From Halanaerobium saccharolyticum (GTDB lineage: Bacteria; Bacillota; Halanaerobiia; Halanaerobiales; Halanaerobiaceae), in NCBI RefSeq assembly GCF_003053565.1, contig NZ_QAXS01000003.1, positions 62,001 through 126,000 on the forward strand: a stretch of 64,000 nucleotides of DNA, in the 5' to 3' direction. The notes under the pieces are model-generated. The model had not been told where the DNA came from, made no database searches, and saw only the letters and a list, made by a program, of their open reading frames with translations. Each line of letters opens with the position of its first letter. Positions within the stretch are counted from its first letter, which is position 1. Made by a program: the position numbers and the translations under genes. Below are positions 2,980-32,827 of the stretch, piece after piece.

Positions 2980-2995
2980 AGATATTTTTAACATA

Positions 2996-12594: not shown

Positions 12595-14346
12595 CTACTC
12601 AATAATTAACTCTACTTTTTCAAACTTACTTACATCAAATAAACCCTGGTCAGTTAATTTAAGTTCTGGAATCACAGTCAGAGCCATAAAGGAAAGGGTC
12701 ATAAATGGTCCATCCCTGTTAACTCCAAGTCCATTTGCTATATCCCTCATTTTATTCAAACGATTTGCTACCTCTTTCACAGATTTAACTGCCATTAATC
12801 CTGCAACAGGAAGCGGCAGAGATTCTTCGACTTTGCCGTTAACAACAATCACCAGTCCCCCCTGCATCTTTTCGATTTCTCGAACAGCAAGTTCCATATC
12901 TTTAGCTCCAACACCTGCTACAACTATATTGTGGGCATCATGGCCGATAGAAGTTGCAATCGCACCCCGCCGGAGACCAAAGTTGCGCAAAAGCCCCAGG
13001 CCAACATTGCCTGTTTTATGATGCCTTTCGACAACAGCCAGCTTAACCAAATTGTGTCCAATCAGCTCGATTGCAGGCGGCTCATCCTCGTATTCAGCTT
13101 CTGTATGATAAACTGATTCTCCTGTAACTACCTGATCTTTAATCAGTTCAATTACCCGATATTTTTTAGCAGCAGGTAGTCTAAAATCACTTTCAGAAAT
13201 ATCGCCAATTTTAACTGAGTTAAATATTTTTTCTTCAATTTCTTTATTCATAAAATCTTCTTTATCCAGAGAAATTTTATCATCAATTGACTTGAGCAGA
13301 GTTCCATCTTCAGCAACCAGTCTGCCGTCCTTATAAACCTTTTTGACTTCAAATTCTCGCAGATTATCAAAGACCAGCAGATCAGCTTTATAGCCGGGAG
13401 CAACTGCACCCAGTTTTTTAATTCCCAGTGCCTGAGCAGCATTGATAGTCGCCAGTTTAACAGCCCGCAGAGGTGAAAGACCATACTGAATTGCTTTTCG
13501 GACAGCAAAATCAATCTGACCTTCTTTAATTAAATCACCAGGATGCCTGTCATCAGTTGCAAACATAAAACGGGAAGAGTTGCTGCTGTTTACAGCCGGG
13601 AGCAAGCTGACTAAATCTCTGGTTACTGAGCCCTCACGAATCATAATATACATTCCCTTAGAAACTTTTTCTCTGGCTTCCTCAGCCGTTGTTGCCTCAT
13701 GATCAGCCTGGATTCCAGCCAGCAAATAGGCGTTTAAATCTTTTTCCGAAAGCCCGGGTGAATGACCATCCTTAAATAAATCTGAAGCCATTTCAATTTT
13801 ATCCCAGATTCCCTTATCTCCACTAATAACCGATGGGAAATCCATTACCTCACCCAGACCAAAAATCCCCTCTTCATCAATCAGAGTTTTTAAGTCAGCG
13901 GCTGAAAGTTCTGCGCCTGAGTTTTCAAATTTTGAAGCCGGAACACAGGAAGGGAGCATTAGATTAAAATTCCAGGGCTGGGCATTACCAGCTTTGAGTA
14001 AATATCTAATCCCTGTCAGTCCTGCAACATTAGCAATCTCATGGGGGTCAGCAACTATAGTCGTCGTCCCCCTGGGAATAATCACCCGGGCAAACTCATC
14101 AACATTGGTCATTGAGGATTCAAGATGAAGATGAGCGTCAATCAAACCGGGAGTTACAATTCTGCCTCCAAGATCAACCTCTTCTTTTCCTTCATAATCT
14201 CCAACTCCAATAATAATTCCATCAGCAACAGCAATATCATTTTCAATCAGTCTTTCATTAAAAACATCAACAATTGTTGCATTCTTAAAGACTTTATCTG
14301 CTTTTTCCAGACCGCGGGCCTGCCTTAATAATTCTTTTCTCAGCAT
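12595..14346 (-). CDS. ade: Adenine deaminase
   Basis: A 583-residue amidohydrolase of the AdeC/COG1001 family, deaminating adenine to hypoxanthine with ammonia release. Metal ligands begin with LIDAHLHLESSM (His at about 72 and 74). Family marks are TTTIVADPHEIANV (about 98-110) and FATDDRHPGD (about 270-280), and the C-terminal half has the GHDAHNIVV stretch of this family. Full length. The stop codon is TAG. ATG start behind AAAGGGGGGAG. It sits 27 bases downstream of the DHOD-ferredoxin gene and feeds hypoxanthine to the molybdenum hydroxylases of this island. Confidence 0.95.
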   Translation of the reverse strand: MLRKELLRQARGLEKADKVFKNATIVDVFNERLIENDIAVADGIIIGVGDYEGKEEVDLGGRIVTPGLIDAHLHLESSMTNVDEFARVIIPRGTTTIVADPHEIANVAGLTGIRYLLKAGNAQPWNFNLMLPSCVPASKFENSGAELSAADLKTLIDEEGIFGLGEVMDFPSVISGDKGIWDKIEMASDLFKDGHSPGLSEKDLNAYLLAGIQADHEATTAEEAREKVSKGMYIMIREGSVTRDLVSLLPAVNSSNSSRFMFATDDRHPGDLIKEGQIDFAVRKAIQYGLSPLRAVKLATINAAQALGIKKLGAVAPGYKADLLVFDNLREFEVKKVYKDGRLVAEDGTLLKSIDDKISLDKEDFMNKEIEEKIFNSVKIGDISESDFRLPAAKKYRVIELIKDQVVTGESVYHTEAEYEDEPPAIELIGHNLVKLAVVERHHKTGNVGLGLLRNFGLRRGAIATSIGHDAHNIVVAGVGAKDMELAVREIEKMQGGLVIVVNGKVEESLPLPVAGLMAVKSVKEVANRLNKMRDIANGLGVNRDGPFMTLSFMALTVIPELKLTDQGLFDVSKFEKVELIIE

Positions 14347-14373: not shown

Positions 14374-15459
14374 TCAGGCCAGTTTTAAAGCATCAAAATT
14401 GCAGCGGGTAACACAGAGTCCGCAGCCAGCACATTTTGCTGCCTCAATAACAATCTTATTATCATCATCAAGATAATTCGCATCATAAACACAGCTAGTA
14501 ATGCAGAGACGGCAGCCGGTACAGTTTTCTCTAATAATCTCTGGGACTTTAGTTTTGTAATTTGCTTTTTCGGGTGCTTTCTTTTGAGCCAATCCTCTGA
14601 TCTGATCTAAATTGTCATAACCATGTTCCTCTAAGTACTGATCAATTTCTGCAGCAATTTTTCCATAAATTTTGGGTCCTTTTAAAATAGCGGCTGTACA
14701 GGTCTGAACTGCCTGAGCTCCAGCCATAATCATCTTAACAGCATCTTCTCCGGTAGAAATACCACCAACTGCTAGAACTGGTATCTCAACAGTTTTTACT
14801 GCCTGAAAAACAGCTCTTAAAGCCAGCGGGAATATTGCCTCTCCCGAAAGCCAGCCGTATCCATCTTCACTCCCCATCAGCGGTTTCCCACTGTCGATGT
14901 TAAAATCAAGGGTTGGACCAAAAGAGTTGATTAAAACCAGGCCATCAGCTCCTGCATCCTCAGCAGCTTTTGCAAATTTGGGGATGTCAATCTGGGGGCT
15001 TAATTTAACCATCACCGGTTTATCAGTTGCCTTTTTGGCAGCCTTAATACTCTCTACAACTGGTGAAGTATCACTGCCCAGATAATGAGTTGAAAGCTCA
15101 AAGGCATCTGCATAGGGATCTGTCTTTTGAACCAGCTCATTAATCTGCTCGGCACTGTAACCAAGACCAACTATTACTGGCAGACCCAAATTTTTAATCT
15201 CAGGGTATTCATTTTTAAGCCAGTGCTCAGGTCCCATTTCTGACCAGAGCTCAGTATTCATAAAACCTCCTCTGGTCTGAGCCATATTGGGACGCGGTAC
15301 TTCAGCTGCCTCAGTCGAAATTGTTTTGGTTACTATTGCACCTGTTCCACCTTCTTTTGCTTTTTTGGCCATTTCAGCATCCTTAATTGGTGGCCCAGCT
15401 GCCGGCATTACCGGGTTTTTTAAAGTCATATCAAAAAGTTTAACACTTATGTCAGCCAT
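14374..15459 (-). CDS. Dihydroorotate-dehydrogenase-like protein fused to a 2[4Fe-4S] ferredoxin domain (PreA-like)
   Basis: A 361-residue protein. Residues 1-290 form an FMN-binding TIM barrel of the DHOD/PreA type, with MPAAGPP near the N-terminus, VMVKLSPQ in the middle and VGGISTGEDAV for the phosphate site. The C-terminal 60 residues contain two four-cysteine clusters, CTGCRLCITSC and CAGCGLCVTRC. The domain order matches the catalytic subunit of dihydropyrimidine dehydrogenase. I chose the ATG at 15459 because AGGAG lies 10 bases before it; a GTG at 15468 is too close to that site. In this island it may reduce or oxidise a purine-derived ring, but no flavin-diaphorase partner is adjacent. 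The substrate is unknown. Confidence 0.85.
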   Translation of the reverse strand: MADISVKLFDMTLKNPVMPAAGPPIKDAEMAKKAKEGGTGAIVTKTISTEAAEVPRPNMAQTRGGFMNTELWSEMGPEHWLKNEYPEIKNLGLPVIVGLGYSAEQINELVQKTDPYADAFELSTHYLGSDTSPVVESIKAAKKATDKPVMVKLSPQIDIPKFAKAAEDAGADGLVLINSFGPTLDFNIDSGKPLMGSEDGYGWLSGEAIFPLALRAVFQAVKTVEIPVLAVGGISTGEDAVKMIMAGAQAVQTCTAAILKGPKIYGKIAAEIDQYLEEHGYDNLDQIRGLAQKKAPEKANYKTKVPEIIRENCTGCRLCITSCVYDANYLDDDNKIVIEAAKCAGCGLCVTRCNFDALKLA

Positions 15460-15460
15460 T

Positions 15461-16168
15461 TTATTCACTCTCCTGTTTGTATATTTTTAAATTTTCTAAA
15501 ATCTTATTTAAGATCACTGCCCTCTGCTCCTGGTCGTCCTCATTTAACTGATAAATCTCTATATCATTTCGCTGCCTGATTTTATCCAGAAATGGGTTCT
15601 CTTCAGCTTTTATAACTCCAATAACAATTTTTTCTGAAGCGAGTAGAGAAAAAACTTCTTTTTGAAATTTAGCGGCCTCTAATTCAAAGCGCCCCAGCTC
15701 ATCCATTACTATCAGCTCAGCCGATTCTCTTAACAATTCAACCCCCAGATTATCAAAAACTTCAGCTTTTAGAGTAAATTTAGCTTCAGTATTTTCTCGA
15801 TAGGCAAAAATTTTCGGATATCTTAATAATTTAAGTGATTTTCCTGCAGCTGCCGAAAGGCTTAAAGTCTCCGGTGCTCCATTGAAAATTTCAAAAGTTT
15901 CCTGACATCTTTTGGCCTCTGCCTGATCTTCCTTTACTTTTTCTGCAGCAGAAAAATCAGCTGCAGCCTGATTTTTTAATGCTTCTGCACCTTTTTCTTT
16001 TAACTCAGCTGCCTGCCTTAGCTCAAATAACAGCGGCTTACCATCTGCCGCATTAATTCTCGCCACTGAAAACCCAGCTGTTTTTAGATCGAGTTCCTGA
16101 AGCAGCCGGGCCAGCAGTGTTGACTTACCGACCCCTTTAGCTCCAGTAATTAAATAATTATTTGCCAT
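15461..16168 (-). CDS. THEP1-like nucleotide-binding NTPase
   Basis: A 235-residue P-loop protein. Walker A is GAKGVGKSTL (about 8-17), and the Walker B region reads IVMDELGRFEL, close to the DExGxxE of THEP1-type NTPases. The middle is rich in Ala and Lys and less typical. It starts within one base of the end of the Mo-subunit C-terminal gene (shared ATTA junction) and is followed by the DHOD-like gene, so it is co-transcribed with a molybdenum hydroxylase. An accessory role in cofactor handling is possible by context only. It is not the usual XdhC/YqeC-type accessory protein. Confidence 0.7.
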   Translation of the reverse strand: MANNYLITGAKGVGKSTLLARLLQELDLKTAGFSVARINAADGKPLLFELRQAAELKEKGAEALKNQAAADFSAAEKVKEDQAEAKRCQETFEIFNGAPETLSLSAAAGKSLKLLRYPKIFAYRENTEAKFTLKAEVFDNLGVELLRESAELIVMDELGRFELEAAKFQKEVFSLLASEKIVIGVIKAEENPFLDKIRQRNDIEIYQLNEDDQEQRAVILNKILENLKIYKQESE

Positions 16169-17169
16169 TAGCTATTTTCTTCCTTCTCTTTTTCCTTCAG
16201 AGCTTTTTTAATTTTAGAAGGACTGATCGGCAGCTCAAAAAATCTGACTCCAATTGCATCATAAACTGCATTGGCCAGTGCCGGTGCTGCCGCAATTAAA
16301 GTTGGCTCTCCAACACCTTTGGCCCCAAATGGTCCTTCAGAGTCCTCTTCTTCAACCAGATAATGTTTAAATTTAGGAACATCAACACTTGTCGGCACCA
16401 GGTAGTCTGTCATGCCTGCATTTAGGGTCTTACCATTGCGGATCACCTGGTCTTCCATCATTCCCATACCAAGTCCCTGAACTGTTCCACCTTCAATCTG
16501 ACCTTCAACATTTTTAGGATTAATTGCTTTCCCAAGATCAATAGCAGAATAAACATCTAAAAGATCAATAGTTCCCGTGTCAGTATCAATTTCAATATCA
16601 ATTACCTGAGAAAGGAAGGTATAGGCTACATAAACTTTATCAGCCTGTCCGTTTTCATCCGGACTATAGGTTACAGGAAAGAAACTTCCCTCAGCTTCCA
16701 GTTTTTCGCCTCTTTCTTTAACTCTCTCTGCCATTTCCCAGTAGCTTATATAATCATCAGGATCATCATACATATAAATTCTGCCGTCTTCAATCGCAAT
16801 CTCAGGATGGTTGCTGCGGAACTCCAGACTGCCGTAATGGTAAAGATTGGCCAGCATATCTTCTGCTGCTTTTTTTACAGCATTACCGGTAAAATAGGTC
16901 TGTCTGGTAGCAGAAGTTGAACCTGAATTTTTCGTTTTATGGGTATCACCCTGTACTACCTCAAAGTAGTTAGGATTAATTCTTAAAATCTCAGCTGCAA
17001 TCTGAATTACTGTAGTAATTACTCCCTGACCAACATCTGCAGCTGCAGTTCTGATTACTATCCGCTCGTCTTCTTTAATTTCTATTGAGGCAATTGAATG
17101 GTCAGGAAATCCCTCTCCATAACCAAAACCAAACATAATTGTTGCCATTCCTCGTCCAAATTTTTTCAT
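16168..17169 (-). CDS. Molybdenum hydroxylase, Mo-cofactor subunit, C-terminal half
   Basis: A 333-residue protein equal to the second molybdopterin-binding domain of xanthine-dehydrogenase-type enzymes. Seen motifs: AAADVGQGVITT (about 42-53), the SGSTSATRQ stretch, AIDLGKAINP, GGTVQGLGMG and FGAKGVGEPT near the end, which carries the Glu expected to be the catalytic base. It lacks the first Mo domain, which is encoded by the gene upstream. The start ATG overlaps the TAA of that gene by one base (TAATG), with AAAGGGGG about 8 bases before, suggesting translational coupling. The homologous subunit at 24338-26629 is one chain. Either a true split subunit or an old frameshift. Confidence 0.88.
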   Translation of the reverse strand: MKKFGRGMATIMFGFGYGEGFPDHSIASIEIKEDERIVIRTAAADVGQGVITTVIQIAAEILRINPNYFEVVQGDTHKTKNSGSTSATRQTYFTGNAVKKAAEDMLANLYHYGSLEFRSNHPEIAIEDGRIYMYDDPDDYISYWEMAERVKERGEKLEAEGSFFPVTYSPDENGQADKVYVAYTFLSQVIDIEIDTDTGTIDLLDVYSAIDLGKAINPKNVEGQIEGGTVQGLGMGMMEDQVIRNGKTLNAGMTDYLVPTSVDVPKFKHYLVEEEDSEGPFGAKGVGEPTLIAAAPALANAVYDAIGVRFFELPISPSKIKKALKEKEKEENS

Positions 17170-18515
17170 TATTTTCTGCCCCCTTTCCAGTCACTGAGCT
17201 CCATCACTCTTTTAATTGTTTCTTCTGCATTCACACTGTGAGTAAGCTGCTGACCGTTAGGAGTTATTGAATCCTTTTGATAAATATTTTTTAGTCTAAA
17301 TTCTGCAGGGTCTATATTTAATTTATGAGCCAGAATATCCATCTGCTGCTCATAGGCGAAAGCTCCCTGAGCAGTACCAAAACCGCGCATCGCACCGGCA
17401 TAAGTGTTATTTGTATAAACAGCATGAGAAACTCCACGCAGATTAGGGCAGTTATAAGGCCCTGTAGCATGATACATTCCTTTGTGCACAACCGCCGGCC
17501 CACTGGAAGCATAGGCTCCCGTATCTCCAACAAACTTGGTCTCCCAGGCTGTTAAATAACCATCCCGGTCAACACCAGTTTTATTAATAATTGTAATTGG
17601 ATGGCGCTTGGATTGGGTAATCATTGACTCTTCTCTGGTAAAACAGAGTTTAACCGGTCTACCAGTCCGCATGGCTGCTATTGCCAGGTGAATATGAACT
17701 GAAACATCCTCTTTTTTACCAAAGGCTCCTCCAATTGTTGGCTGGATTATCCTAACCTGATCCTTAGAGAGACGCAGTGACTGGGCAACATCAGCCTGAG
17801 TATCATGCAGCCACTGGGTTGCAGCCCAGATATCAACTACTCCGTGCCGCTCATCATAGAGGGCAACTCCAGCTTCATTCTGCATCGGCAGCTGATCGAT
17901 AAACTGTGTCTGATAGCGATTTTCTTCTACAATGGCTGAATTTTTAAAAGCTTCATCAACATCGCCCCGATTTAAATGATGGGTAATTACTATATTTCCA
18001 TCAGGGTGAATATTTGGAGCATCAGCTTCCATGGCTCGGAAGGGATCAGTAATCACTTCTAATTCTTCTACTTTAACCTGAATTAAATCTCTGGCTTTTT
18101 TTGCGGCCTCTTTAGTTTCGGCAACTATAATCGCCAGAGCATCCCCCATATAGCGCATCTTTTCTCCGGGTGCAATTAAAACCGGCTGGTCTCTAATAAT
18201 AAGGCCGAACTGCCTTACATCCGGAATATCTTCAGCAACAATGATATCAACTACTCCCTGAACTTTTTTAGCTCGAGAAATATCAATATCTTTTAAAATT
18301 GCATGGGGGTGAACTGCCCTTTTGATTTTAATATGCAGCATATCATCAAAGCTGATGTCATCAGGATAAACTGCCTCTCCAGTTACTTTATCCCAGGCAT
18401 CTGCTTTCAAAATATCATGCCCGACAAAACGTTTGCTCTTTTTTACTCCTTCAATTGTACAGCGAGTAGTATGTTTACAGAAATAATCTTTAATTCTCTT
18501 ATTCTGATCAGTCAT
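17169..18515 (-). CDS. xdhA: Molybdenum hydroxylase, Mo-cofactor subunit, N-terminal half
   Basis: A 448-residue protein with the Ald_Xan_dh_C domain (about 20-130) and the first Mo-binding domain. Motifs are VGHDILKADAWDKVTGEAVY near the N-terminus, TIGGAFGKKED in the middle and GAMRGFGTAQG later. It ends right after the LSDWKGG linker, where the one-chain paralogue continues into the second Mo domain. I use the ATG at 18515, which has AAGGAAG upstream and overlaps the iron-sulfur gene by 8 bases, rather than a TTG at 18539. With the next gene the two parts total about 781 residues, against 763 in the fused paralogue. Confidence 0.88.
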   Translation of the reverse strand: MTDQNKRIKDYFCKHTTRCTIEGVKKSKRFVGHDILKADAWDKVTGEAVYPDDISFDDMLHIKIKRAVHPHAILKDIDISRAKKVQGVVDIIVAEDIPDVRQFGLIIRDQPVLIAPGEKMRYMGDALAIIVAETKEAAKKARDLIQVKVEELEVITDPFRAMEADAPNIHPDGNIVITHHLNRGDVDEAFKNSAIVEENRYQTQFIDQLPMQNEAGVALYDERHGVVDIWAATQWLHDTQADVAQSLRLSKDQVRIIQPTIGGAFGKKEDVSVHIHLAIAAMRTGRPVKLCFTREESMITQSKRHPITIINKTGVDRDGYLTAWETKFVGDTGAYASSGPAVVHKGMYHATGPYNCPNLRGVSHAVYTNNTYAGAMRGFGTAQGAFAYEQQMDILAHKLNIDPAEFRLKNIYQKDSITPNGQQLTHSVNAEETIKRVMELSDWKGGRK

Positions 18516-18993
18516 TACTATCACTTCCTTCAACTGCAAGTTTATCTGCTGCCAGCATTACAGCATCGATAATCTTTGCATAACCGGTACAGCGGCAGAT
18601 ATTGCCGGAAAGACCATAGCGGACTTCTTTTTCTGTTGGTTTAGGTTTTTCATCCAGCAGTCTTTTGCTTGCCAGAACCATTCCTGGAATACAGTAACCA
18701 CACTGCACTGCACCGGCTTCCACAAATGATTCCTGAATTGGATGCAAATCATCCTTTGTGCCCAGCCCTTCTACGGTTACAATCTCAGCCTGATCGGCCT
18801 GGGGAGCAGGTACCAAACAGGAAGCGGTCAGTTCTCCATTCATAATTACAGTACAGGCACCACATTCACCTTTACCACAGCCTTCTTTGACACCGGTTAG
18901 CCCTAAATCTTCTCTCAACAGATCGAGCAGCCTGGTATAGGGAGTAACTTCCAATTCTCTTTTGGCTCCATTAACTGTTATAGTTATCTGCAT
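18508..18993 (-). CDS. xdhC: Molybdenum hydroxylase, 2x[2Fe-2S] subunit
   Basis: A 161-residue iron-sulfur subunit. The plant-ferredoxin-like half carries CGKGECGAC (about 39-47) with the fourth Cys in TASCLVPA. The helical half carries CGYC (about 98-101) and CRC (about 133-135). Length is typical. It passes electrons from the molybdenum site to the FAD subunit. ATG start behind GGAAGGTGAG. It overlaps the FAD gene by one base (ATGA) and the Mo-subunit gene by 8, the usual arrangement of a co-translated complex. Confidence 0.95.
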   Translation of the reverse strand: MQITITVNGAKRELEVTPYTRLLDLLREDLGLTGVKEGCGKGECGACTVIMNGELTASCLVPAPQADQAEIVTVEGLGTKDDLHPIQESFVEAGAVQCGYCIPGMVLASKRLLDEKPKPTEKEVRYGLSGNICRCTGYAKIIDAVMLAADKLAVEGSDSND

Positions 18994-19907
18994 CAGCTGC
19001 TCACCTTCCTTTCTATTTCATTTAAAGCTCTAACCATCACATCTACTGCCACATCTTCTCGATATTCTTTAGTTCCTCTTAAGTCATCTATCGGATTGAT
19101 ACTGGATTTAACTTCTTTTCCCAGCGCTTTATAATCAAGGTCTTTAAGTGTTTGATCAATCATCACCGCTTCTATCCCCTTAAGCCTGACTGGAGTTGGA
19201 GCAACTGAACCCATTGCCACACCAGCTTTAACTATTTTTTCTCCTTCAAACTCCATTACAACAGCAAGGGTCAGAGTAGAAATAACAAGGGCTTTGCGGC
19301 GGCCAACCTTAATCCAGGCACCCTCTCTCTTATTTTCAGTCATCGGAATTATAATCTCTGTTAAAAGCTCATCTGCTTCCATTAAGTTTCTTTTAGGACC
19401 GGTAAAGAAATCTTCTGCCTTAACAATTCTTTCTCCAGCCTCTGTCTGCAGTTTGAAACTTGCCTCATAGCTTAATAGTGGTGCTAAAAGATCTCCTGCA
19501 GGGGAAGATGTACAGATATTACCTCCAATTGTACCTCTGCTTCTTATTTGAGGTGAACCAACATCTTCTGCTGCAGCAGCCAACACCGGCAATTTATCCT
19601 TAATTAAATCTGAATCCATTAAATCCAGGTGAGTTACCATGGCTCCAATATGCAATTTGTTGTCTTTAACCTTAATTTCTTTGAGCTCATCCAGCTTTAC
19701 CAAATCCAGCCAGTATTCAATCTCATGCAGTTTTTCATAATTTGCTACCAGTAAATCTGTAGATCCTGCTGCCACTTTGAGCTCTTCTTTATATTCAGCT
19801 TTTATTTCCAGGGCTTTTTGAAGATTTTCTGGCTGAAAGTATTCTTTAAAATCTGCGCCAGAAATCGTCTGCCTGTTCTCCTGTTTCATGGGTGATTTTC
19901 TCATCAT
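18993..19907 (-). CDS. xdhB: Molybdenum hydroxylase, FAD subunit
   Basis: A 304-residue FAD-binding subunit. FAD contacts are seen in VAAGSTDLLV (about 45-54) and SRGTIGGNICTSSPAGD (about 122-138), with a C-terminal CO-dehydrogenase flavoprotein-like domain (about 190-300). It hands electrons to an acceptor. Start choice: GGAGGTG precedes a run TTG-ATG-ATG at 19910-19904, and I take the first ATG, 19907. This makes its first 21 codons overlap the 3' end of ssnA in another frame, about 62 bases. A later ATG at 19889 would shorten the overlap but has no ribosome site. Confidence 0.9.
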   Translation of the reverse strand: MMRKSPMKQENRQTISGADFKEYFQPENLQKALEIKAEYKEELKVAAGSTDLLVANYEKLHEIEYWLDLVKLDELKEIKVKDNKLHIGAMVTHLDLMDSDLIKDKLPVLAAAAEDVGSPQIRSRGTIGGNICTSSPAGDLLAPLLSYEASFKLQTEAGERIVKAEDFFTGPKRNLMEADELLTEIIIPMTENKREGAWIKVGRRKALVISTLTLAVVMEFEGEKIVKAGVAMGSVAPTPVRLKGIEAVMIDQTLKDLDYKALGKEVKSSINPIDDLRGTKEYREDVAVDVMVRALNEIERKVSS

Positions 19908-21177
19908 CAACTACCTGCACCTCCCGATTTTCCATTAAGATTCTTCCTTTTACAATTGTTGTATCAACCATACCCCCATTAATCCCAAATAAGATATGGG
20001 CATAAGTATTATCACTGTTGATCTCAGTTGGCGGCTTATAATCTACCACAATAATATCTGCTGCCGCTCCCTCTTTTAAAACTCCCAGCTGAGGTCCAAA
20101 AGTCTCAGTTGCCAGCTGAGCATTGGTTTTAAAAACCATCTGAGGTATTTCAGTCCAGCCGAGACGAGGATCCCGATTCTGATGCTTGAGCATTAAATTG
20201 GCGAACTTAATGCTCTCAAACATATCAGTTGTATAACCATCTGTTCCGAGACCTACTTTTAAATCTTTAGCCAGCGCTTCTTTTAAAGGGGCTGCTCCAA
20301 CAGCATTTCCCATATTTGATTCCGGGTTATTGATTAGATAACAGTCATTATCTCTTAAGATCTCCAGTTCACCTTCCTGTAGATGCACTCCATGAATGGC
20401 CATTGTTCCCGGCCGCCAGATGTTATACTGATCAAGACGCTTAACCGCTCCATTGTAGCCGCGTAATCGGCTGTCTTCTAAATCAGTTCGTCCTTCAGCT
20501 ACATGAATATGAAAACTACTGTCCAACTCATCTGCCAGATCTGAAACCTGCTCTAAAGTTTCATCCTCTAAGGTAAAAGAAGCATGTAAGCCAATTCTAC
20601 CATTTAAGTGGTCCATATCTTTCTCCCTAATCTTTCGTAAAAAACTTTCGCTTTCTGTAATTGAATCCTGAGACTGCTCCGGTCCATTGCGGTCAGAAAT
20701 CTCATAACAGAGATCAGCTCGAATTCCGAGTTCTTCTACAGCTTTAGCAATTAAATCAAGACTGTATCTAACCTGCCCGTAGCTTGCGTGGTGGTCAAAA
20801 ACTGTAGTTACCCCCTGTTTTAAGCCGGTTAAAAAGGCATAAAGGGCACTGTAATAAACATCATCAGCTTTAAGAGTACTGTCAACCCTCCACCACATTT
20901 TCTCTAAGATTTCTAAAAAGTGACGGGGAGGCTGCTCGGTCTTTAAATCCATTCCCCGAGCAAAGGTACTGTAAATATGCATATGGGTATTGATCATCCC
21001 TGGCATAATAATTTTACCTTTAACATCTTTAATTTCAGCTTCCGGATACTTAGATTTTAAAAGCTCAGCTTCACCTAAAGCCTTAATCTCTTCGCCATCG
21101 ATTAAAACTGCTCCATTTTTAATAACTCTATTATCCTGATCATGAGTAATCACTGTTCCATTTGTTAATAAGAGCAA
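19846..21177 (-). CDS. ssnA: SsnA-type putative aminohydrolase
   Basis: A 443-residue metal-dependent amidohydrolase. The metal ligands are HMH in GMINTHMHIYS, His in HIHVAEGRTD, His in AIHGVHLQE and Asp in LGTDGYTTD. The WWRVDSTL stretch and the C-terminal WRRF match SsnA. In enterics and gut anaerobes ssnA lies in ygeW-ygeY-xdh clusters and is needed for anaerobic purine/urate use; the exact ring it opens is not settled. TTG start behind AAGGAGTGG. The 3' end overlaps the FAD subunit gene by about 62 bases, so the two are tightly linked. Confidence 0.92.
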   Translation of the reverse strand: MLLLTNGTVITHDQDNRVIKNGAVLIDGEEIKALGEAELLKSKYPEAEIKDVKGKIIMPGMINTHMHIYSTFARGMDLKTEQPPRHFLEILEKMWWRVDSTLKADDVYYSALYAFLTGLKQGVTTVFDHHASYGQVRYSLDLIAKAVEELGIRADLCYEISDRNGPEQSQDSITESESFLRKIREKDMDHLNGRIGLHASFTLEDETLEQVSDLADELDSSFHIHVAEGRTDLEDSRLRGYNGAVKRLDQYNIWRPGTMAIHGVHLQEGELEILRDNDCYLINNPESNMGNAVGAAPLKEALAKDLKVGLGTDGYTTDMFESIKFANLMLKHQNRDPRLGWTEIPQMVFKTNAQLATETFGPQLGVLKEGAAADIIVVDYKPPTEINSDNTYAHILFGINGGMVDTTIVKGRILMENREVQVVDDEKITHETGEQADDFWRRF

Positions 21178-22993: not shown

Positions 22994-23467
22994 TTAGGCA
23001 CCCCATTCTTCAGCTGCCATCTCAACTGCATCAATTATCTGCTGATAACCGGTACAGCGGCACAAATTTCCTTCCAAAGCTGTTTTTATCTCTTCTTTGC
23101 TTGGTTCAGGATTGGTATTCAGTAAGGCCAGAGCTGACATCAGCATTCCCGGAGTACAGAAACCACACTGCACAGCCTGTTTTTCAATAAAGGCCTTCTG
23201 CAGTGGATGGAGTCCGCTCTTTGACTCCAAGCCTTCAACGGTAATAATCTCACTACCGTCAACCTGAGCTGTGAGCACCATACAGGAATTAACTGCCTGA
23301 TCATCAACAATCACCGTACAGGCACCACATTCTCCAACACTGCAGCCTTCTTTGGTTCCAGTCAGCTTCAGCTGTTCTCTAATTGTATCCAGCAGTCTCT
23401 CCTGACTGCCTACTTTTAATTTATGTTTTTCACCATTAACTGTTAATTCTACATCTAACTTAGCCAT
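22994..23467 (-). CDS. Second molybdenum hydroxylase, 2x[2Fe-2S] subunit
   Basis: A 157-residue iron-sulfur subunit. The clusters are CSVGECGAC plus SCMVLTA for the plant-type centre, and CGFC and CRC for the helical centre. ATG at 23467 is chosen because GGAGGCGGG lies upstream and it overlaps the FAD gene by 8 bases, as in the first set. It shares about half its residues by eye with the subunit at 18508-18993, so the two sets are paralogous. It transfers electrons between the Mo and FAD subunits of the second enzyme. Confidence 0.94.
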   Translation of the reverse strand: MAKLDVELTVNGEKHKLKVGSQERLLDTIREQLKLTGTKEGCSVGECGACTVIVDDQAVNSCMVLTAQVDGSEIITVEGLESKSGLHPLQKAFIEKQAVQCGFCTPGMLMSALALLNTNPEPSKEEIKTALEGNLCRCTGYQQIIDAVEMAAEEWGA

Positions 23468-24335
23468 TATATCCCGCCTCCTCAAGTAAATCTTCAACTG
23501 CTCTTTCTACAAGTTTACCGAGAGCAGGCCGTTTATAAGGAGTTGACCATCTTTCTCCGGTAATCCCTACCATCTCATCTGCTGCTATATTTCCAGCTTC
23601 AATCGGATCAATTTCCGCAAAGCTTTTACCATTCAAATAATCATTGACCTTTCTAAATGGTACAGGAAAAGGTGTTGCTGCTCCAGATGCTACCTGAGCT
23701 TTCTTTACTCTGCCATTTTCTACCTCAGCTAAAAGTGTCAGTGAAATTCTCGAAATACTTAAAGCCTTGCGGCGCCCAATCTTCTGATAGCTGCTGTAAT
23801 ATTCACCCTGGGGCATCGCAAAAACTATTTTTTCTAAAACCTCATCCGGCTTAATTATAGTCTGATAGGGCCACTCCACAAAATCTTCAAGTAATACTCT
23901 GCGGGCTCCCCCCTTTGACCTCAGGACTACTTCTGCTCCCAGAGCAATCAAGGGTGAAAAGGAATCCGCACAGGCTGCTGCATTGGCCAGGTTACCACCA
24001 ATAGTTGCCCGGTTTCTAATTTGAGTTGAGCCAATACTGCTGGCTGCTGCCGCAATAAAGGGCAGTTTTTCCTTGATTTCCGGATTACTTACCAATTCAG
24101 CGTGGGTAGTTAAGGCTCCAATTTCACCTTTTTTATCTCCAAGCTGAATTCCTTTTAGTTCATCTACAGCTGTAATATCAAGCAGATAATCTATCTTATC
24201 AAATTTCTGATCCTGATGGTGAAGGTCAACCATTAAATCAGTTCCACCAGCAAGAAGTTGAACATTTTCTCTTTGATCAAGTATTTCTAATAGTTCATCT
24301 AAACTGTGAGCTCTCAGTAATTGATATTCTACCAT
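23460..24335 (-). CDS. Second molybdenum hydroxylase, FAD subunit
   Basis: A 291-residue FAD-binding subunit with LLAGGTDLMVDL (about 28-39) and NRATIGGNLANAAACAD (about 105-121), followed by the C-terminal domain typical of the CO-dehydrogenase flavoprotein/XDH FAD family. ATG start behind GGGAGGTAAA, two bases after the Mo-subunit stop. It is co-transcribed with the large subunit upstream and the iron-sulfur subunit downstream. Electron acceptor unknown. Confidence 0.94.
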   Translation of the reverse strand: MVEYQLLRAHSLDELLEILDQRENVQLLAGGTDLMVDLHHQDQKFDKIDYLLDITAVDELKGIQLGDKKGEIGALTTHAELVSNPEIKEKLPFIAAAASSIGSTQIRNRATIGGNLANAAACADSFSPLIALGAEVVLRSKGGARRVLLEDFVEWPYQTIIKPDEVLEKIVFAMPQGEYYSSYQKIGRRKALSISRISLTLLAEVENGRVKKAQVASGAATPFPVPFRKVNDYLNGKSFAEIDPIEAGNIAADEMVGITGERWSTPYKRPALGKLVERAVEDLLEEAGYNG

Positions 24336-24337
24336 TA

Positions 24338-26629
24338 TTATTTACCTCCCTTATGCAGAGCACGACCAATTAAAACCCGCTCTAAATTAAGGGGTAAAGA
24401 ACGAATTCTCTTGCCTGAAGCATGAGCTACTGCATTTGCTATTGCTGCACTACCCAGTTCTAAAGTCGGCTCTCCAATTGATTTAGCCCCAAAAGGACCA
24501 TCAGGATCAGGATTTTCTACAATCACCGGTTTAATATCAGGCATATCCTTAATGGTTGGAATCATATAGTCATGGAAGTTAGTCCCCTGAATCACTCCAT
24601 CTCTTAACTCAAGTTCCTCCATAATTCCATAACCTAAGCCCATCATAACTCCACCGTAAATCTGACCTTTTACATTTTCCGGGTTTATGGCTCGTCCAAC
24701 ATCATGAGCTGCCGCCATATTAATCACACTCAGCTCACCGGTTCCGGTATCAACTTCAACCTCAGCTATCTGACAGCCGTAAACATAGGTGAAGTAAGGA
24801 TTTCCACAGCCTTTTTCTTCATCCCAGGAAATTGGTGGAGATTTATACCAGCCGTAAGCTGACATTAAAATCCCTGTATTCCCCATCTCACCTGTTAAAT
24901 CAGCAAAGGTTGCCAGTCTGTTTCCCTGACCGTCATACAAAAATCCGTCCTTTAATTCCATCACTTCTGCATCTAATTCATATTTATCCTGAGCAAAAGT
25001 CATAATTCTCTGCTTCAACTTTTCAGCTGCATCTTTAACCGCATTACCACCAATTAAAGTAGCCCGAGAAGCAACCGTTGAGCCGCTGTCTGGAGTAAAA
25101 CTGGTGTCCAGCTCTTTAAATTCTACTTCACTCATTGGAATACCCAGAACCTCAGCTGCCATTTGAGAAAAGATTGTTTTTAAACCCTGTCCATTTTCTG
25201 CCAGGCCGCTGTAGACAGCCACACTACCGTCTTTATTAATCTGAATCACAGAAGCTGCTGCATCAATTGCCTCAGCTCCTAAACTACAGCCTCTAAAGGA
25301 AATCGAAAGTCCAATTCCTTTCTTCTTATCTCCAGACTGCTCTTTAGAATATTCTTCATATTTATTTTTGTAATCTATGGCCTCCATCGCCTTATCCATA
25401 ACTTCATTTAAAGAAACAGTATGCCGATCAAGCTTCTGACCGCTTGCAGTCACTGATCCCTGCGAATACATATTTCTTTTCCTCAGTTCTACCGGTTCCA
25501 GGCCGAGTTCTCCTGCCAGCTCATCCATTAGCGACTCCTGAGCAAAAATAACCTGAGGGGAACCATAACCGCGCATCGCCCCGGTATAAGGATTATTGGT
25601 ATAATAACCATAGGTATCAGTTTTAACATTTTCTACTTCGTAGGGCCCTGTCGCCTGGACCACACTGCGCCAGGTTACAAAGGGAGTCTGACAGGCATAG
25701 CCCCCACTGTCAGCTACAGCTTCGATCTCCATTGCTGTCAGCTTACCTTCTTTAGTCGCTCCAATTTTATATGTTAAATGATAGGGATGACGCTTATAAC
25801 TTTCGGTAAAAGATTCTTCCCTGCTGTTGACCATTTTGACCGGCCGACCTGTAGCAATTGCCATCACTGCTGCCCGAGCAGCCATCGCCGAGACAACCTC
25901 ATCCTTACCGCCAAAGGAGCCGCCGATATGATTTTGAATAACTCTGACATCAGCCAACTCAACTTCCAGCACCGCAGAAACTGCATTTCTGGTTGCATAA
26001 GGATTCTGAATCGAGCCATAGACTGAAACCAGGTGATTGTCTTCATTAGGAACCACTACAACTGCCTCCGGCTCCAGATAGGAATGCTCAATAAACTGTG
26101 TTGTATATTCTCTCTCTAATACCACATCTGCTTCTGCAAATCCTTTTTCCACATCACCTTTCCGCAGGGGATGATGAATTACCTGATTATCCTCTTTTTC
26201 TGGATGTAATTTCAAAGCACCTTCCTTCCGTGCTTCTAAAGGATCAAAAACTCCTTCCAGTTCTTCATAATCAACCTCGATTTTCTCCAGCGCTGCCGCT
26301 GCTTCTGCTTCACTTTCTGCAACAACCATCGCCACTCCATCGCCAGCCAGCACTACCTTATCCTCAGCCAGCACCTGCTGATCCTGCACAATAACTCCAA
26401 AAAGATTATTGGGAATATCCTTAGCTGTAAATACTCCTTTTACTCCCGGCATTTTTTCAGCCTCAGAAGTTTCAATTTTTAAAATTTTAGCATGAGGATA
26501 TTCAGTTCTCAAGACTTTAGCATAGAGCATATTGGCAAATTCTAAATCCGCTCCAAATTTTGCCTTTCCTGTAACCTTTTCATAGGCATCAACTCTTTTG
26601 ACACCCTTGTTGACATGTTTAAAAGCCAT
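24338..26629 (-). CDS. Second molybdenum hydroxylase, fused Mo-cofactor subunit
   Basis: A 763-residue xanthine-dehydrogenase-type large subunit in one chain. The N-terminal Ald_Xan_dh_C domain (about 15-125) is followed by the first Mo domain with IGGSFGGKDE and GAMRGYGSPQ, then the second with SGLAENGQGL, DSGSTVASR, VGRAINP and FGAKSIGEPTLELG, which holds the catalytic Glu. Length is normal. Substrate could be xanthine, hypoxanthine or another N-heterocycle; sequence alone does not decide. ATG start behind GGAGGTGCAG. It heads a Mo-FAD-FeS-amidohydrolase operon and has a leader of about 220 bases that may be regulated. Confidence 0.95.
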   Translation of the reverse strand: MAFKHVNKGVKRVDAYEKVTGKAKFGADLEFANMLYAKVLRTEYPHAKILKIETSEAEKMPGVKGVFTAKDIPNNLFGVIVQDQQVLAEDKVVLAGDGVAMVVAESEAEAAAALEKIEVDYEELEGVFDPLEARKEGALKLHPEKEDNQVIHHPLRKGDVEKGFAEADVVLEREYTTQFIEHSYLEPEAVVVVPNEDNHLVSVYGSIQNPYATRNAVSAVLEVELADVRVIQNHIGGSFGGKDEVVSAMAARAAVMAIATGRPVKMVNSREESFTESYKRHPYHLTYKIGATKEGKLTAMEIEAVADSGGYACQTPFVTWRSVVQATGPYEVENVKTDTYGYYTNNPYTGAMRGYGSPQVIFAQESLMDELAGELGLEPVELRKRNMYSQGSVTASGQKLDRHTVSLNEVMDKAMEAIDYKNKYEEYSKEQSGDKKKGIGLSISFRGCSLGAEAIDAAASVIQINKDGSVAVYSGLAENGQGLKTIFSQMAAEVLGIPMSEVEFKELDTSFTPDSGSTVASRATLIGGNAVKDAAEKLKQRIMTFAQDKYELDAEVMELKDGFLYDGQGNRLATFADLTGEMGNTGILMSAYGWYKSPPISWDEEKGCGNPYFTYVYGCQIAEVEVDTGTGELSVINMAAAHDVGRAINPENVKGQIYGGVMMGLGYGIMEELELRDGVIQGTNFHDYMIPTIKDMPDIKPVIVENPDPDGPFGAKSIGEPTLELGSAAIANAVAHASGKRIRSLPLNLERVLIGRALHKGGK

Positions 26630-26911: not shown

Positions 26912-28261
26912 TTAACAGATTTTTTTCTCATCTTTCTCCGGCAGCAGCAAATTTAAACCAATTGCAATGATAGCTCCAACAGTTATTCCCGATGATAAAA
27001 CTGTAGAAATAACTTCTGGCAGCTGGGCCACAACATCAGGTCTAAAGGTTACTCCCAGCCCGAAACTTAAAGCAATTGATAAAATAAAAATCTTTCTATC
27101 TGTCAGACCATTTTTAGTCACAATTTTCATTCCTGAGGTAGCAACCATTCCAAAAAGAGCAATTGTTGCTCCACCTAAAACAGGGTTGGGCATTACACTT
27201 ACTAAAGCTCCAATCTTAGGAACCAGACCCAGAAAGAATAATATCCCGGCAACTGCTATTCCTACTACTTTACTTCCTACTTTTGTAATCTGAATAACTC
27301 CAATATTCTGGCTGAAAGTTGAGTTAGGTAGTGAATTAAAGACAGCTGCAATTGCACTTCCAACACCATCAGCCATAATTCCACCACTGAGTCTTTCTAT
27401 ATGCTGTTCATTTGCTACATCCTCACCGGAAACTTCGGCTACAGCAGTTAGATCTCCTATTGATTCCACAGTAGTAATTATATAAGCCATTACCCAGGGT
27501 AGAAGGTGACTTAACTGAAATGACATTCCATACTTAAAAGGCTGAGGAATAGTAAACCAGCCAGCATTTGCTACTTCTGTCATATTAACCAGCCCCAGGG
27601 GAATAGAAACTATGTATCCCACAATCAAACCAATCGCTACCGCTCCTACTTTAATTAAACCCTTACCAAAACGATTAGCAATAATAATAATAGTTAAGAC
27701 AAATAGTCCTAAAATTAGATTCTGAGGTGCGCCATAGTTTTCTGCGCCTGCTCCACCACCAAAATCTGTAATACCAACCTCCATCAGACCGAGACCGATT
27801 AACATAACCACAGTTCCAGTTACAACCGGTGGAAATATTTTTCTGGTCTGTCTGATAAATCTACTTAAAATCATTTCAACTGGAGAAGTGGCAAGTCCCA
27901 TTCCTAAAACTAGAGGTAAACCACCCTCACTTGCTGCTGCAATCGCCATCGGCACAAAAGTAAATGAAGTACCATGAACTGCCAGCAGACCTGAGCCCAC
28001 AGGCCCAATCTTTGTCACCTGAATATAGGTAGTAACTCCCGAGACCATCAGTGCCATACTGACAAAAAATCCAGTTTCCGCTGCATTTAATCCTGCTACT
28101 CCAGCAATAATCAGAGGAGGAGTAATAATCCCCACAAACATAGCCAGCATATGCTGCAGCCCCAGTAATAAAGTCTCAATCATAGGCGGTTTTTCTTCAA
28201 GTCCGTAAAAAGGTTCATCCTCAACATACATTTCCCGTTTCTGCTCACTACTTTTCTGCAT
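26912..28261 (-). CDS. NCS2-family xanthine/urate permease
   Basis: A 449-residue polytopic transporter of the nucleobase:cation symporter-2 family. Clear family segments are GLQHMLAMFVG (about 34-44), GPVGSGLLAVHGTSFTFVP, PPVVTGTVVMLIGLGL and SLPNSTFSQNIGV, the last matching xanthine/urate carriers (UacT/XanQ/PbuX) rather than uracil carriers. It probably brings xanthine or urate in for the hydroxylase system. ATG start behind AAAGGAGAGG. It lies between the Mo-hydroxylase operon and ygeW, with about 230 bases to the latter. Confidence 0.92.
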   Translation of the reverse strand: MQKSSEQKREMYVEDEPFYGLEEKPPMIETLLLGLQHMLAMFVGIITPPLIIAGVAGLNAAETGFFVSMALMVSGVTTYIQVTKIGPVGSGLLAVHGTSFTFVPMAIAAASEGGLPLVLGMGLATSPVEMILSRFIRQTRKIFPPVVTGTVVMLIGLGLMEVGITDFGGGAGAENYGAPQNLILGLFVLTIIIIANRFGKGLIKVGAVAIGLIVGYIVSIPLGLVNMTEVANAGWFTIPQPFKYGMSFQLSHLLPWVMAYIITTVESIGDLTAVAEVSGEDVANEQHIERLSGGIMADGVGSAIAAVFNSLPNSTFSQNIGVIQITKVGSKVVGIAVAGILFFLGLVPKIGALVSVMPNPVLGGATIALFGMVATSGMKIVTKNGLTDRKIFILSIALSFGLGVTFRPDVVAQLPEVISTVLSSGITVGAIIAIGLNLLLPEKDEKKIC

Positions 28262-28489: not shown

Positions 28490-29473
28490 TTACTTACCTC
28501 CCATAGTTAAGGTCATTACTGCCTTAGCTGTGTGCAGTCTATTTTCTGCCTCAGTAAAGACAATTGAATGCTCACCATCAATTACAGAATCTTCAACTTC
28601 ATTACCGCGATCAGCAGGGAGAGCGTGCATGTACATTACATCGTCATCTGCCATTGCCATTCTTTCTTCAGTACACTTCCAGTGTTTATTTGATTCTAAA
28701 AGATCATCTATTACTGCATCATCCTGATTTGTTACCCAGCTTCCCCAGTTTTTAGGGATAACAATGTCAGCATCACGATAAGCTTCATCCTGATCATGTG
28801 TTATTTTAAAGGTACCATTATGTTTTTCAGCATTGGCTCTGGCCTGTTCAATTACCCAGTCCGGCATCTCATAACCCTCAGGATAGGCCAGGGTTACATC
28901 CATACCATAGCGGGGGAATAATAAAGCCTGAGTTAAAGGTACAGAAATCGGCTTTTTGTGGCTGGTAGCATAAGCCCAGATTATTGAAACTTTTAGATTT
29001 CTAGTTTCTTTTTTCTTTTCTTTTATAGTCATTAAATCTGCAATACCCTGCATTGGATGATAGAGATCACACTGCAGGTTCATTACTGGAACTTTAGCAT
29101 GATTGGCCAGTGAGCGCAGATACTTATTTCCGATTTCCCAGACACAGTTGCGGCAGGCAATAGCATGTCCATAGCTGCCCAGAATAATTCCGGTATCTTT
29201 GGCAACCTCACCGTGAGAAACCTGCATGGTGCTGGTATCTAAAAAGTTAGCATGACCACCCAGCTGAGCCAGACCGGCTTCCATTGAGTTTCTGGTTCTG
29301 GTTGACTGCTCAAAAAACATCAAAAAAGCTGTTTTATCTCTTAAGTATGGTGTTGGCTCACCCATTGCAAATTTTCTCTTTAAATCAAATGATACCTCAA
29401 GTAGAGTATCAATCTCATCTTTGGTCCATTCCTGCAGTGTTATAAAATCTCTTCCCTTTAATTGAGTTTCCAT
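28490..29473 (-). CDS. ygeW: YgeW-type (knotted) carbamoyltransferase
   Basis: A 327-residue transcarbamoylase of the YgeW branch. The carbamoyl-phosphate loop is FEQSTRTRNS (about 54-63), the CP/amino-binding HPMQGIADL follows (about 139-147), and the third signature is MHALPADRGNEV near the C-terminus, in place of the HCLP of ornithine carbamoyltransferase. YgeW does not use ornithine or aspartate; its physiological partner is unknown, but it occurs in purine/urate and selenium-linked gene clusters. It could yield carbamoyl phosphate, hence ATP, from a ureido intermediate. ATG start with AAAGGAGG upstream. Palindromic repeats flank the gene. Confidence 0.93.
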   Translation of the reverse strand: METQLKGRDFITLQEWTKDEIDTLLEVSFDLKRKFAMGEPTPYLRDKTAFLMFFEQSTRTRNSMEAGLAQLGGHANFLDTSTMQVSHGEVAKDTGIILGSYGHAIACRNCVWEIGNKYLRSLANHAKVPVMNLQCDLYHPMQGIADLMTIKEKKKETRNLKVSIIWAYATSHKKPISVPLTQALLFPRYGMDVTLAYPEGYEMPDWVIEQARANAEKHNGTFKITHDQDEAYRDADIVIPKNWGSWVTNQDDAVIDDLLESNKHWKCTEERMAMADDDVMYMHALPADRGNEVEDSVIDGEHSIVFTEAENRLHTAKAVMTLTMGGK

Positions 29474-29586: not shown

Positions 29587-30828
29587 TTAAGCTAAAAGAT
29601 TTTCGGTTTCTTCTGGCATCTGATCGGCATATTTTTCTACAAATAATTTTGGAATCGCAGCATAAATTGCAGCGGCTTTAACTAATTCTGATTTCCAGGT
29701 CTTTTCGTTTGGTGCATGTGCCTGATCTTCATGGCCGGGGCCAAATCCAATACAGGGAATTCCATGCCGCCCCATAATTGAAACTCCATTGGTTGAAAAA
29801 GTCCACTTATCAACCAGCGGCTCTTCCTTAAATAGTTCCTTATAAGCTTCAACTGTAGTCTGACAGACGGGGTGATCTTCTTCGATCAGCCAGGTTGGAA
29901 AATAAGCATCAATTGGATATTTAAGACCTGTATAAGAAGGTCTTTCATATTTATACATTTCAACTTCTGCATCTGCCTCATTGACTGCAGGTAGGTTTTT
30001 AACCTGCTGCACAGCAAACTGCCAGCTCTCACCAGCGGTCAGGCGGCGGTCAATTGAAATACTGCAGCCGTCTGCTACCGCACAGCGGGAAGGTGAGCTG
30101 TAAAAAATTTCGGAAACAGTTAGACTTCCCTTACCTAAAAAGTCATGGGGAGTTAAATTTGGATGCAGAGCTTTAAGTTCATTGATAATTGGAGCCATCT
30201 TATAAATTGCATTATCTCCTCTTTCAGGAGCTGAACCGTGACAGCTGACACCGTGGGTGCTGACTTTCATTTCCATTCTGCCCCGGTGACCGCGGTAAAT
30301 ATTACATGATGAAGGCTCAGTAATTACTACAAACTCAGGTTTGATATCATCTTCTTCTAAAATGTAATGCCAGCAGAGGCCATCACAGTCTTCTTCCTGA
30401 ACTGTTCCAGTGATTACTAAGGTATAATCATCTTCCAGGCCCAGATCCTTAATAATCTTACCGGCATAAACCATTGAAGCCATGCCGCCTTCCTGGTCAC
30501 TGGCTCCCCGGCCGACAATTATTTCATCATCTTCATAACCTTCAAAAGGATCATAATCCCAGAGAGATTCATCTCCCACACCAACAGTATCAATATGAGC
30601 ATCCATAGCAATTACATGGCTGCCGCTACCTATGTAGCCCAAAATATTGCCCATCTCATCAATCTCAATCTTATCAAAGCCTACTTTTTCCATTTCTTCT
30701 TTTATTCTCAGTACTACCTCTTTTTCTTCACAGCTTTCACTCGGTATTCTGATCATATCTCTTAAAAATGCACTAATTTCTGAACGATAACTTTCTGCTT
30801 TTTCCATTATTTGATCAAATTCTATCAC
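29587..30828 (-). CDS. ygeY: YgeY-type M20 metallohydrolase
   Basis: A 413-residue M20-family enzyme of the YgeY (selenium-metabolism-linked hydrolase) subgroup. Metal-site motifs are MDAHIDTVG (about 74-82), [10 protein letters not shown] (about 106-115), VQEEDCDG (about 143-150), ITEPSS and, near the C-terminus, [13 protein letters not shown]. Members of M20 cleave amide bonds; in this context a ureido or amide product of purine ring opening is likely, but unproven. GTG start behind GGAGGTG. The gene lies upstream of ygeW in the same operon, separated by an inverted repeat. Confidence 0.92.
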
Positions 30829-30921: not shown

Positions 30922-31473
30922 TTAAAAATTAGGTGGTGTAATTGCTGAGATAAAGTGCAGATCTTCTTCACCAATACTCCTAATCTTATGGGGCAGACTA
31001 GCTTTATAATAAATACTGTCCCCTTTTTCTAATTCATATTCCTGATCCCCAATTTTAATATACATTTTCCCCTGCATAACAATAGTACATTCTTCGCCCA
31101 GGTGATTTAAGGGTTCATCAGTTGTTTCTGCTCCTGGCTCTAAAGTTGCTTCTATGACCTCCATATCTCGATTTAAATCTGGAGAAAGAAGCTCAAAGGT
31201 TAGATGAGAACCGGGGAAATTCAGGATTCGACGCTCATCTTTACGGACTACCGCATTATGACTTTCTTCTTCAATTAGAAAATAGAAAATTGGAACCTCA
31301 AGCGCCCTGGCTATTTCTCTTAGTGCAGTAATTGATGGTTCCGCCAGACCTCTTTCCACCTGGCTTAAATAACTTGATGTTTTTTGGATTTCCTCTGCCA
31401 CGTCATTTAAACTCATCCCTCTTGCCTGGCGTTTCTTTCGAATTCGCTGGCCCAACCTGATATTATCACTCAT
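30922..31473 (-). CDS. XRE-family regulator with C-terminal cupin
   Basis: A 183-residue regulator. Residues 5-62 form a helix-turn-helix of the XRE type, with MSLNDVAEEI for helix 2 and SYLSQVERGLAEPS around the recognition helix. Residues 105-180 are a cupin_2 sensor domain with HLGEECTIVMQGK and EKGDSIYYKASLPHKI. Such proteins often control amino-acid, polyamine or amine catabolic operons by binding a small ligand. I use the ATG at 31473 rather than the GTG one codon earlier. It overlaps the threonine-synthase-like gene by 8 bases and is probably the local regulator of the ygeY-ygeW region. Confidence 0.92.
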   Translation of the reverse strand: MSDNIRLGQRIRKKRQARGMSLNDVAEEIQKTSSYLSQVERGLAEPSITALREIARALEVPIFYFLIEEESHNAVVRKDERRILNFPGSHLTFELLSPDLNRDMEVIEATLEPGAETTDEPLNHLGEECTIVMQGKMYIKIGDQEYELEKGDSIYYKASLPHKIRSIGEEDLHFISAITPPNF

Positions 31474-32722
31474 CACTGGTCACACCCTGTTCAGCAAAGA
31501 TCTTAGTTAGTTTCTCCAGGTCCGGTTCAACTTCGATTGGGTCACCAGCTGCCCGGCGGGCATTTTTAACATCTTTAAGACCATTACCGGTAATTACAAC
31601 AGCTGCGCTCTCATCTTTCTTTACAATCCCCTCTGCTGCAGCTTTTTTAAGCCCAGCCATTCCAGCAACTCCTGCCGGTTCACCAAAGATCCCGGTTTTT
31701 TTACCGAGATTTCTCATCATAGCTAAAATCTGATCATCGCTGACATTAATCATTTGCCCTTCAGAATCCCTAACAGCTCTAACTGCCTTCAGCCAGTTGC
31801 GTGGTTTACCTACAGCAATACTGTCGGCGATTGTGTTTTCAGCTGTGACTTCCAGATCCTTACCAGTTCTGAAGGCTTCTGTGATTGGAGCACAGCCTGC
31901 TGCCTGAACACCCAGCAGTTTTGGAATCCGATCAATAAAACCAATCTGTTTTAGGTCATATAAACCTTTATAGGCTCCTGCTATTGTACAGCCATCACCA
32001 ACAGAAAAGACAAGCCAGTCAGGCATCTCCCATTCCAGCTGTTCCGCCAGCTCTAAAGAAACTGTCTTTTTACCTTCAACCAGATAGGAATTAATGGCAG
32101 CATTGCGGTTATACCAGCCCCATTTTTTAATTGCCTCTGCCGACAGATAAAATGCTTCCTCATAAGAACCTTTGACCGAAACAACATCAGCTCCGTAAAT
32201 TAAAAGCTGGGCCAGTTTACCGGCTGGAGCCCGATCGGGCACAAAAATAACTGCGTTCATTCTGCCTCCCATAGAAGCAATATTACCTGCCAGTGAAGAA
32301 GCTGCATTACCTGTTGAAGAACAAGCAACCGTTTTTGCTCCTGCTTCCTGAGCTTTAACTACAGCCATCGCTGAAGCTCTATCTTTTAAAGAAGCTGTTG
32401 GATTTAAGCCATCATCCTTAATAATAAGCTCTTTAATCCCAAATTCTTCTGCCAGGACCGGTGAATTATAAACCGGGGTATTCCCAACAGCAAGTTTAGG
32501 CTTTTCAGTCTCCGGCTTAATCGGCAGCAGAGGTTCAAAGCGCCAGATACGCTGATCAGGATTTGCCTTTAAATCAGCTTTTGACCATTCACTCTTAATT
32601 TTTTGGTAATCAAAATCAACATCTAAGATCCCATCCTCACAGTCATCACAGAGATAACGCTCAGGATCGGCTTCATATTCTCTACCACACTTAATACAGT
32701 GCAGCCCTGTTACATATTTCAT
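31466..32722 (-). CDS. Threonine-synthase-like PLP enzyme with N-terminal zinc ribbon
   Basis: A 418-residue fold-type-II PLP enzyme. The N-terminus has a zinc-ribbon pattern CIKCG...CDDC (within residues 9-33). The PLP lysine lies in NPTASLKDRAS, and the phosphate/substrate loop is SSTGNAASSLAG, as in threonine synthase. The SVGDGCTIAGAYKG stretch is also typical. True threonine synthesis is not supported by any thr gene nearby. Among ygeW-type clusters this place is taken by YgeX (diaminopropionate ammonia-lyase), so a beta-elimination on an amino-acid-like product is a fair inference. I use the ATG at 32722, 6 bases after GAGGTG. Confidence 0.85.
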   Translation of the reverse strand: MKYVTGLHCIKCGREYEADPERYLCDDCEDGILDVDFDYQKIKSEWSKADLKANPDQRIWRFEPLLPIKPETEKPKLAVGNTPVYNSPVLAEEFGIKELIIKDDGLNPTASLKDRASAMAVVKAQEAGAKTVACSSTGNAASSLAGNIASMGGRMNAVIFVPDRAPAGKLAQLLIYGADVVSVKGSYEEAFYLSAEAIKKWGWYNRNAAINSYLVEGKKTVSLELAEQLEWEMPDWLVFSVGDGCTIAGAYKGLYDLKQIGFIDRIPKLLGVQAAGCAPITEAFRTGKDLEVTAENTIADSIAVGKPRNWLKAVRAVRDSEGQMINVSDDQILAMMRNLGKKTGIFGEPAGVAGMAGLKKAAAEGIVKKDESAAVVITGNGLKDVKNARRAAGDPIEVEPDLEKLTKIFAEQGVTSDE

Positions 32723-32827
32723 CTGCTTCACCTCAATTACTAATTCTATTCTCGTCTATTTAATTCTGCCCGCTTAGATTGAAATAAGCAGCGAGAGAAT
32801 CCGAATTTATTTTCTATTTATATAATT

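Follow-up and report, generated by a model that had tools for sequence, protein, structure and literature searches.

The nicotinate dehydrogenase (NDH) of Eubacterium barkeri is encoded by four genes whose products are of 23, 33, 37, and 50 kDa, and Mo is bound by the two largest of them (PMC10331938, a review). Its subunits, NdhL, NdhM, NdhS, and NdhF, are seen in structure 3HRD, where the Mo subunit is divided after Mo domain 1. Some other members of the xanthine oxidase family have the Mo subunit whole: in one-chain xanthine dehydrogenase Mo subunits of the PucD/XdhA kind the same three Pfam domains follow in the same order in a single polypeptide, and E. coli XdhD is also one chain. SsnA, UacX (a DHO_dh protein), YgeW, YgeY, and PALP proteins are members of the reductive urate pathway, and in the E. 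coli XdhD-YgfM and C. difficile urate clusters a Mo hydroxylase adjoins SsnA (PMC12507026).

Here we analyse a hydroxylase locus of Halanaerobium saccharolyticum contained in a 64,000-nucleotide stretch of contig NZ_QAXS01000003.1 (the window). A sequence-only reading of the window had noted that the Mo subunit of one hydroxylase is divided over two genes, and had left the choice between a real two-chain form with translational coupling and a frameshift that happened to leave a good start. The two-chain layout is already known and structurally solved in E. barkeri and is not a novelty. Its recognition here guards a conserved two-chain enzyme against being filed as a pseudogene or a sequencing error, and adds a probable purine/urate operon of the Halanaerobiales to the settings in which the NdhL/NdhM layout occurs.

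Domain content of the two chains

The Pfam domains expected of the xanthine oxidase family were found in order across two adjacent ORFs, with Ald_Xan_dh_C and MoCoBD_1 in ORF1 and MoCoBD_2 in ORF2 (Table 1). The earlier description of the second Mo domain as a 333-residue protein of its own was thus correct, as was that of the paralogous enzyme as a single chain, in which all three domains were found in one ORF. The ORF1 frame opens at a TTG at 18539 (456 aa), and the ATG at 18515 is the likelier start. A GAKGVGEP motif lies within ORF2; its glutamate (E288) is invariant in 12 relatives and is presumably the catalytic glutamate of the family. Mo domain 1 of ORF1 carries an AMRGFG loop of the form AxRGFG, to which AFRGFG corresponds in NDH and XDH (PMC8305194). 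A search of a plasmid collection returned no match.

Table 1. Features of the split hydroxylase locus. Coordinates are those of the window, except in the last row, which describes locus L026.
Feature	Coordinates	Strand	Remarks
Adenine deaminase	12595..14346	-	TIGR01178, 625 bits (cut-off 472.5)
UacX/PydA-like reductase	14374..15468	-	DHO_dh (PF01180) with C-terminal 4Fe-4S domain; compared with UacX of PMC12507026
NTPase_1 family protein	15461..16168	-	Start overlaps ORF2 end by one base
ORF2, second Mo-cofactor domain as separate subunit, NdhM-type	16168..17169	-	MoCoBD_2; 333 aa; ATG start
ORF1/ORF2 junction	17167..17189	-	GGAAAGGGGGCAGAAAATAATG; ribosome-binding site inside last ORF1 codons (WKGG), then TAA and ATG sharing one base
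ORF1, hammerhead and first Mo-cofactor domain subunit, NdhL-type	17169..18515	-	Ald_Xan_dh_C, MoCoBD_1
[2Fe-2S] subunit of split enzyme	18508..18993	-	Fer2, Fer2_2
FAD subunit of split enzyme	18993..19910	-	FAD_binding_5, CO_deh_flav_C; 305 aa from TTG, true start may be internal
SsnA-type amidohydrolase	19846..21177	-	TIGR03314, 542 bits (cut-off 455.5)
Paralogous one-chain Mo subunit	24338..26629	-	763 aa; FAD subunit 23460-24335, FeS subunit 22994-23497
Xanthine permease, PbuX family	26912..28261	-	TIGR03173, 448.6 bits (cut-off 414)
Carbamoyltransferase (OTCace), YgeW-like by position	28490..29473	-	Below YgeW and ornithine cut-offs
YgeY-family hydrolase	29587..30828	-	TIGR03526, 714.7 bits (cut-off 321.5)
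PALP-family PLP enzyme, candidate for YgeX position	31466..32731	-	Best model threonine synthase; not over YgeX model
L026 (genome G023), fused copy, the only one in the order's split clade	1488-3837	-	783-aa frame

The best solved structures for ORF1 and ORF2 were chains A (E 2.7e-96) and B (E 5.8e-64) of 3HRD, respectively. Residues 1-329 of ORF2 matched residues 1-330 of chain B, with the starts MKKFGRG and MKKRGKG. Mo domains 1 and 2 are encoded as separate chains as in NdhL/NdhM, the break falls before the KK-G-G of domain 2, and the second chain begins at the same residue as NdhM (MKK-G-G). As in NDH, the FeS and FAD subunits are separate, here in the same operon. The locus departs from NDH in that the sequence similarity is only moderate, the neighbouring genes are purine genes, and the YqeB marker is absent from the window genome. 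We conclude from these sequence comparisons that ORF1 and ORF2 very probably encode a genuine two-chain, NdhL/NdhM-type Mo subunit of a xanthine-oxidase-family hydroxylase, a judgement that leaves the substrate aside. Like NdhL and NdhM, the two chains would assemble around a single Mo cofactor, and homology suggests that the FeS and FAD subunits encoded next to them complete a unit of four subunits.

Conservation of the split

The sequence-only reading had proposed that relatives be checked for the same split. We searched 38 genomes of the order Halanaerobiales for the second half and found it in 25. A separate frame of ~330 aa lies directly behind the first half in 24 of these, spanning six families, and the remaining genome has one fused frame nested among split copies (Table 1, last row). 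ORF2 identity among the split copies of the order ranged from 59 to 100%, with no internal stops. All genomes of the genus and family that have the ortholog are split, the opposite of the one-chain relatives that would have told against a real two-chain form. A scan of named genomes found only split forms in H. saccharolyticum, H. kushneri, H. polyolivorans, Halothermothrix, and several Atribacterota. The split is also present in Atribacterota and many other Bacillota, and a phylum sample of 398 genomes held many more frames of ~330-360 aa beside fused frames of ~760-930 aa.

The junction of strain 5-U2 (G019) and of the H. saccharolyticum strains is identical to that of the window, and that of H. 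kushneri differs by one base. Because these independent assemblies agree, an assembly error near 17170, where a missing or extra base had been envisaged, is excluded. In-frame TAG codons flagged in L021 and L025 as possible recoding both proved to be terminal stop codons.

Junction and translation start of ORF2

On the coding strand the junction reads GACTGGAAAGGGGGCAGAAAATAATGAAAAAATTT, in which TAA and ATG overlap by one base (TAATG), and GGAAAGGGGG sits just upstream. The duplex energy of the -20 to -4 stretch with the anti-Shine-Dalgarno (anti-SD) sequence was -11.0 kcal/mol, in agreement with the strong ribosome-binding site previously read at this join. Upstream of ORF2 the median energy was -11.4 kcal/mol over 47 split loci, against -3.0 kcal/mol at the same position in 44 fused loci; the contrast is large, although the rows are related and the p-value of the rank test is not independent evidence. 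Three split loci without a start in range (L019, L020, and L119) were left out of this comparison, and L018 was scored as having no SD through the choice of an upstream ATG, while GGGAGGGGG precedes its true start. A strong SD site is present before the second gene in essentially all split copies, and most fused copies lack one at the corresponding position. The overlap of stop and start measures 4 bases in 10 of the 25 split loci of the order, 1 base in 7, and 8 bases in 5; the other 3 have a gap of 1-2 bases.

A sequencing error or a recent frameshift mutation could have broken a one-chain gene and left a good start by chance; the paralogous Mo subunit of the window is a single chain, and there are homopolymer runs at the junction (G5, A4, and A6). 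However, the same or nearly the same junction recurs in independent assemblies, and the split, with overlaps of differing length and with open frames that are intact and conserved, is kept throughout six families of the order and also in Atribacterota and other Bacillota. We regard this explanation, the earlier reading's own alternative, as exceedingly improbable. It is also conceivable that programmed ribosomal frameshifting fuses both frames, so that a single long polypeptide is the major product or a minor one. In the window the ORF2 frame stays open over the 21 bases that precede its ATG, and the last codons of ORF1 are AGA AAA TAA, where the A's could allow a lysine tRNA to slip backwards by one base. 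With a fixed recoding event the frame would be constant, but ORF2 is in frame 2 relative to ORF1 in 18 of the 25 split loci of the order and in frame 1 in seven, so two independent starts with coupling are the better reading. Further, in several relatives the frame of ORF2 is closed 0-3 bases before the ATG, the junctions inspected by eye share no slippery heptamer, ORF2 has its own start and SD, and 3HRD has the corresponding parts as separate chains, one of 425 and one of 330 residues. Programmed frameshifting was rejected on the varying frame and the closed upstream frames, and we hold it to be very unlikely.

Of the two-chain form with coupling that had been suggested, the two chains are upheld by the conserved split, and the overlap and SD point to translational coupling of ORF1 and ORF2. 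Ribosomes finishing ORF1 would restart at the overlapping ATG, or be recruited to it, via the SD inside the end of ORF1.

Evolution of split and fused forms

In an unrooted tree of the second Mo domain, five changes of the split or fused label are required, and well-supported branches force three of these. The fused copy L026 falls in the starred clade of split rows; it carries a junction linker of ~18 residues, has an insertion ahead of Mo domain 1, and is probably a re-fusion. Grouping all split rows as one clade was rejected (p-AU 1.3e-7) in an unrooted tree in which NdhM is a long branch; L026 was removed for this test, as the nested re-fused copy had confounded the test that included it. 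The order also has a second, distant split Mo hydroxylase of 40% identity (L027, G032:C164, 1501-3721), which groups with NdhM in the domain-2 tree on long branches.

The split may have arisen repeatedly at one and the same point, or it may be old and have been undone in some lineages. A tentative proposal, to which we give somewhat less credence than its contrary, is that within Bacillota and Atribacterota the Mo subunit was split on more than one occasion, each time at the same inter-domain point, and was re-fused on at least one (G023/L026). If it is true, a single enzyme family in a single operon context has two-chain and one-chain forms that are evolutionarily interchangeable. The gene order SsnA-FAD-FeS-Mo1-Mo2-(NTPase)-UacX-Ade is conserved in Halanaerobiales, and four loci of uncultured Firmicutes (L055, L056, L059, and L063) have the same order with the Mo gene fused. 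Split and fused relatives in the same operon order offer a natural comparison for the assembly of multi-domain enzymes.

Gene neighbourhood and likely substrate

As in the XdhD-YgfM and C. difficile urate clusters (PMC12507026), the split enzyme adjoins SsnA and has UacX-like, YgeY-, carbamoyltransferase-, and PALP-type genes nearby. This neighbourhood suggests that it most likely acts in anaerobic purine/urate breakdown, as a urate dehydroxylase (the XdhD role) or a purine hydroxylase. It was found together with SsnA and a reductase of the YgfK/UacX type, as expected of XdhD, and an 8-oxoguanine deaminase accompanies the one-chain paralogue. These gene positions make the split enzyme the candidate for XdhD, and the paralogue is most likely the xanthine dehydrogenase. 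The XdhD role in particular we consider nearly balanced, leaning slightly against. Unlike E. coli XdhD, the window enzyme has two Mo genes and a separate FeS gene. Neither half reached an NCBIfam equivalog cut-off; against the XdhD model TIGR03313 they scored 124.5 and 177.2 bits (cut-off 1101.9), but this model describes a single chain with FeS and Mo parts fused, which puts split proteins at a disadvantage. Among the window genes tested, neither a HyuA nor a YgfK homologue was identified.

The split enzyme could instead be a nicotinate dehydrogenase like that of E. barkeri, whose chains A and B are the closest solved structures for both halves. Apart from the moderate similarity and the purine neighbours already described, NdhM sits with the split paralogue L027 on a long branch (1.38) in the domain-2 tree, away from the clade of the window, and we judge a nicotinate dehydrogenase unlikely.

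More widely, window positions 12595-34303 look like an anaerobic purine/urate utilisation locus of Halanaerobium, with two Mo hydroxylases, SsnA, a UacX-like reductase, YgeY, a carbamoyltransferase, two PALP enzymes, and a permease. The NTPase_1 gene is fast-evolving (29-45% identity in most relatives) and was not detected at the same place in several of them (L029, L030, L035, L050, and L054). An IS256-family transposase lies at 6268-7449. The split enzyme with FAD and FeS genes was observed in Atribacterota at L037, L040, L044, L046, L047, L049, and L053, and in a bacterium of the same clade at L036. Neither SsnA nor UacX was found in the examined flanks (up to 4 kb) of these split copies, and given such flanks the use of the enzyme may differ there.

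Selenium markers

YqeB, a marker of selenium-hydroxylase maturation, was not found in the window genome (G000) or in other genomes of its genus. The window genome does encode a SelD (G000:C26, 23047-23973) that scores above the cut-off. Its frame contains a single TGA, as does that of every genome in the order for which SelD matched at full length, so the protein is probably selenocysteine-containing. Because YqeB is absent from genome and genus although SelD is present, selenium dependence of the split enzyme in the window genome is not supported. YqeB is present in G022, G001, and family f4, which carry the same enzyme, and selenium use may differ between its orthologs.
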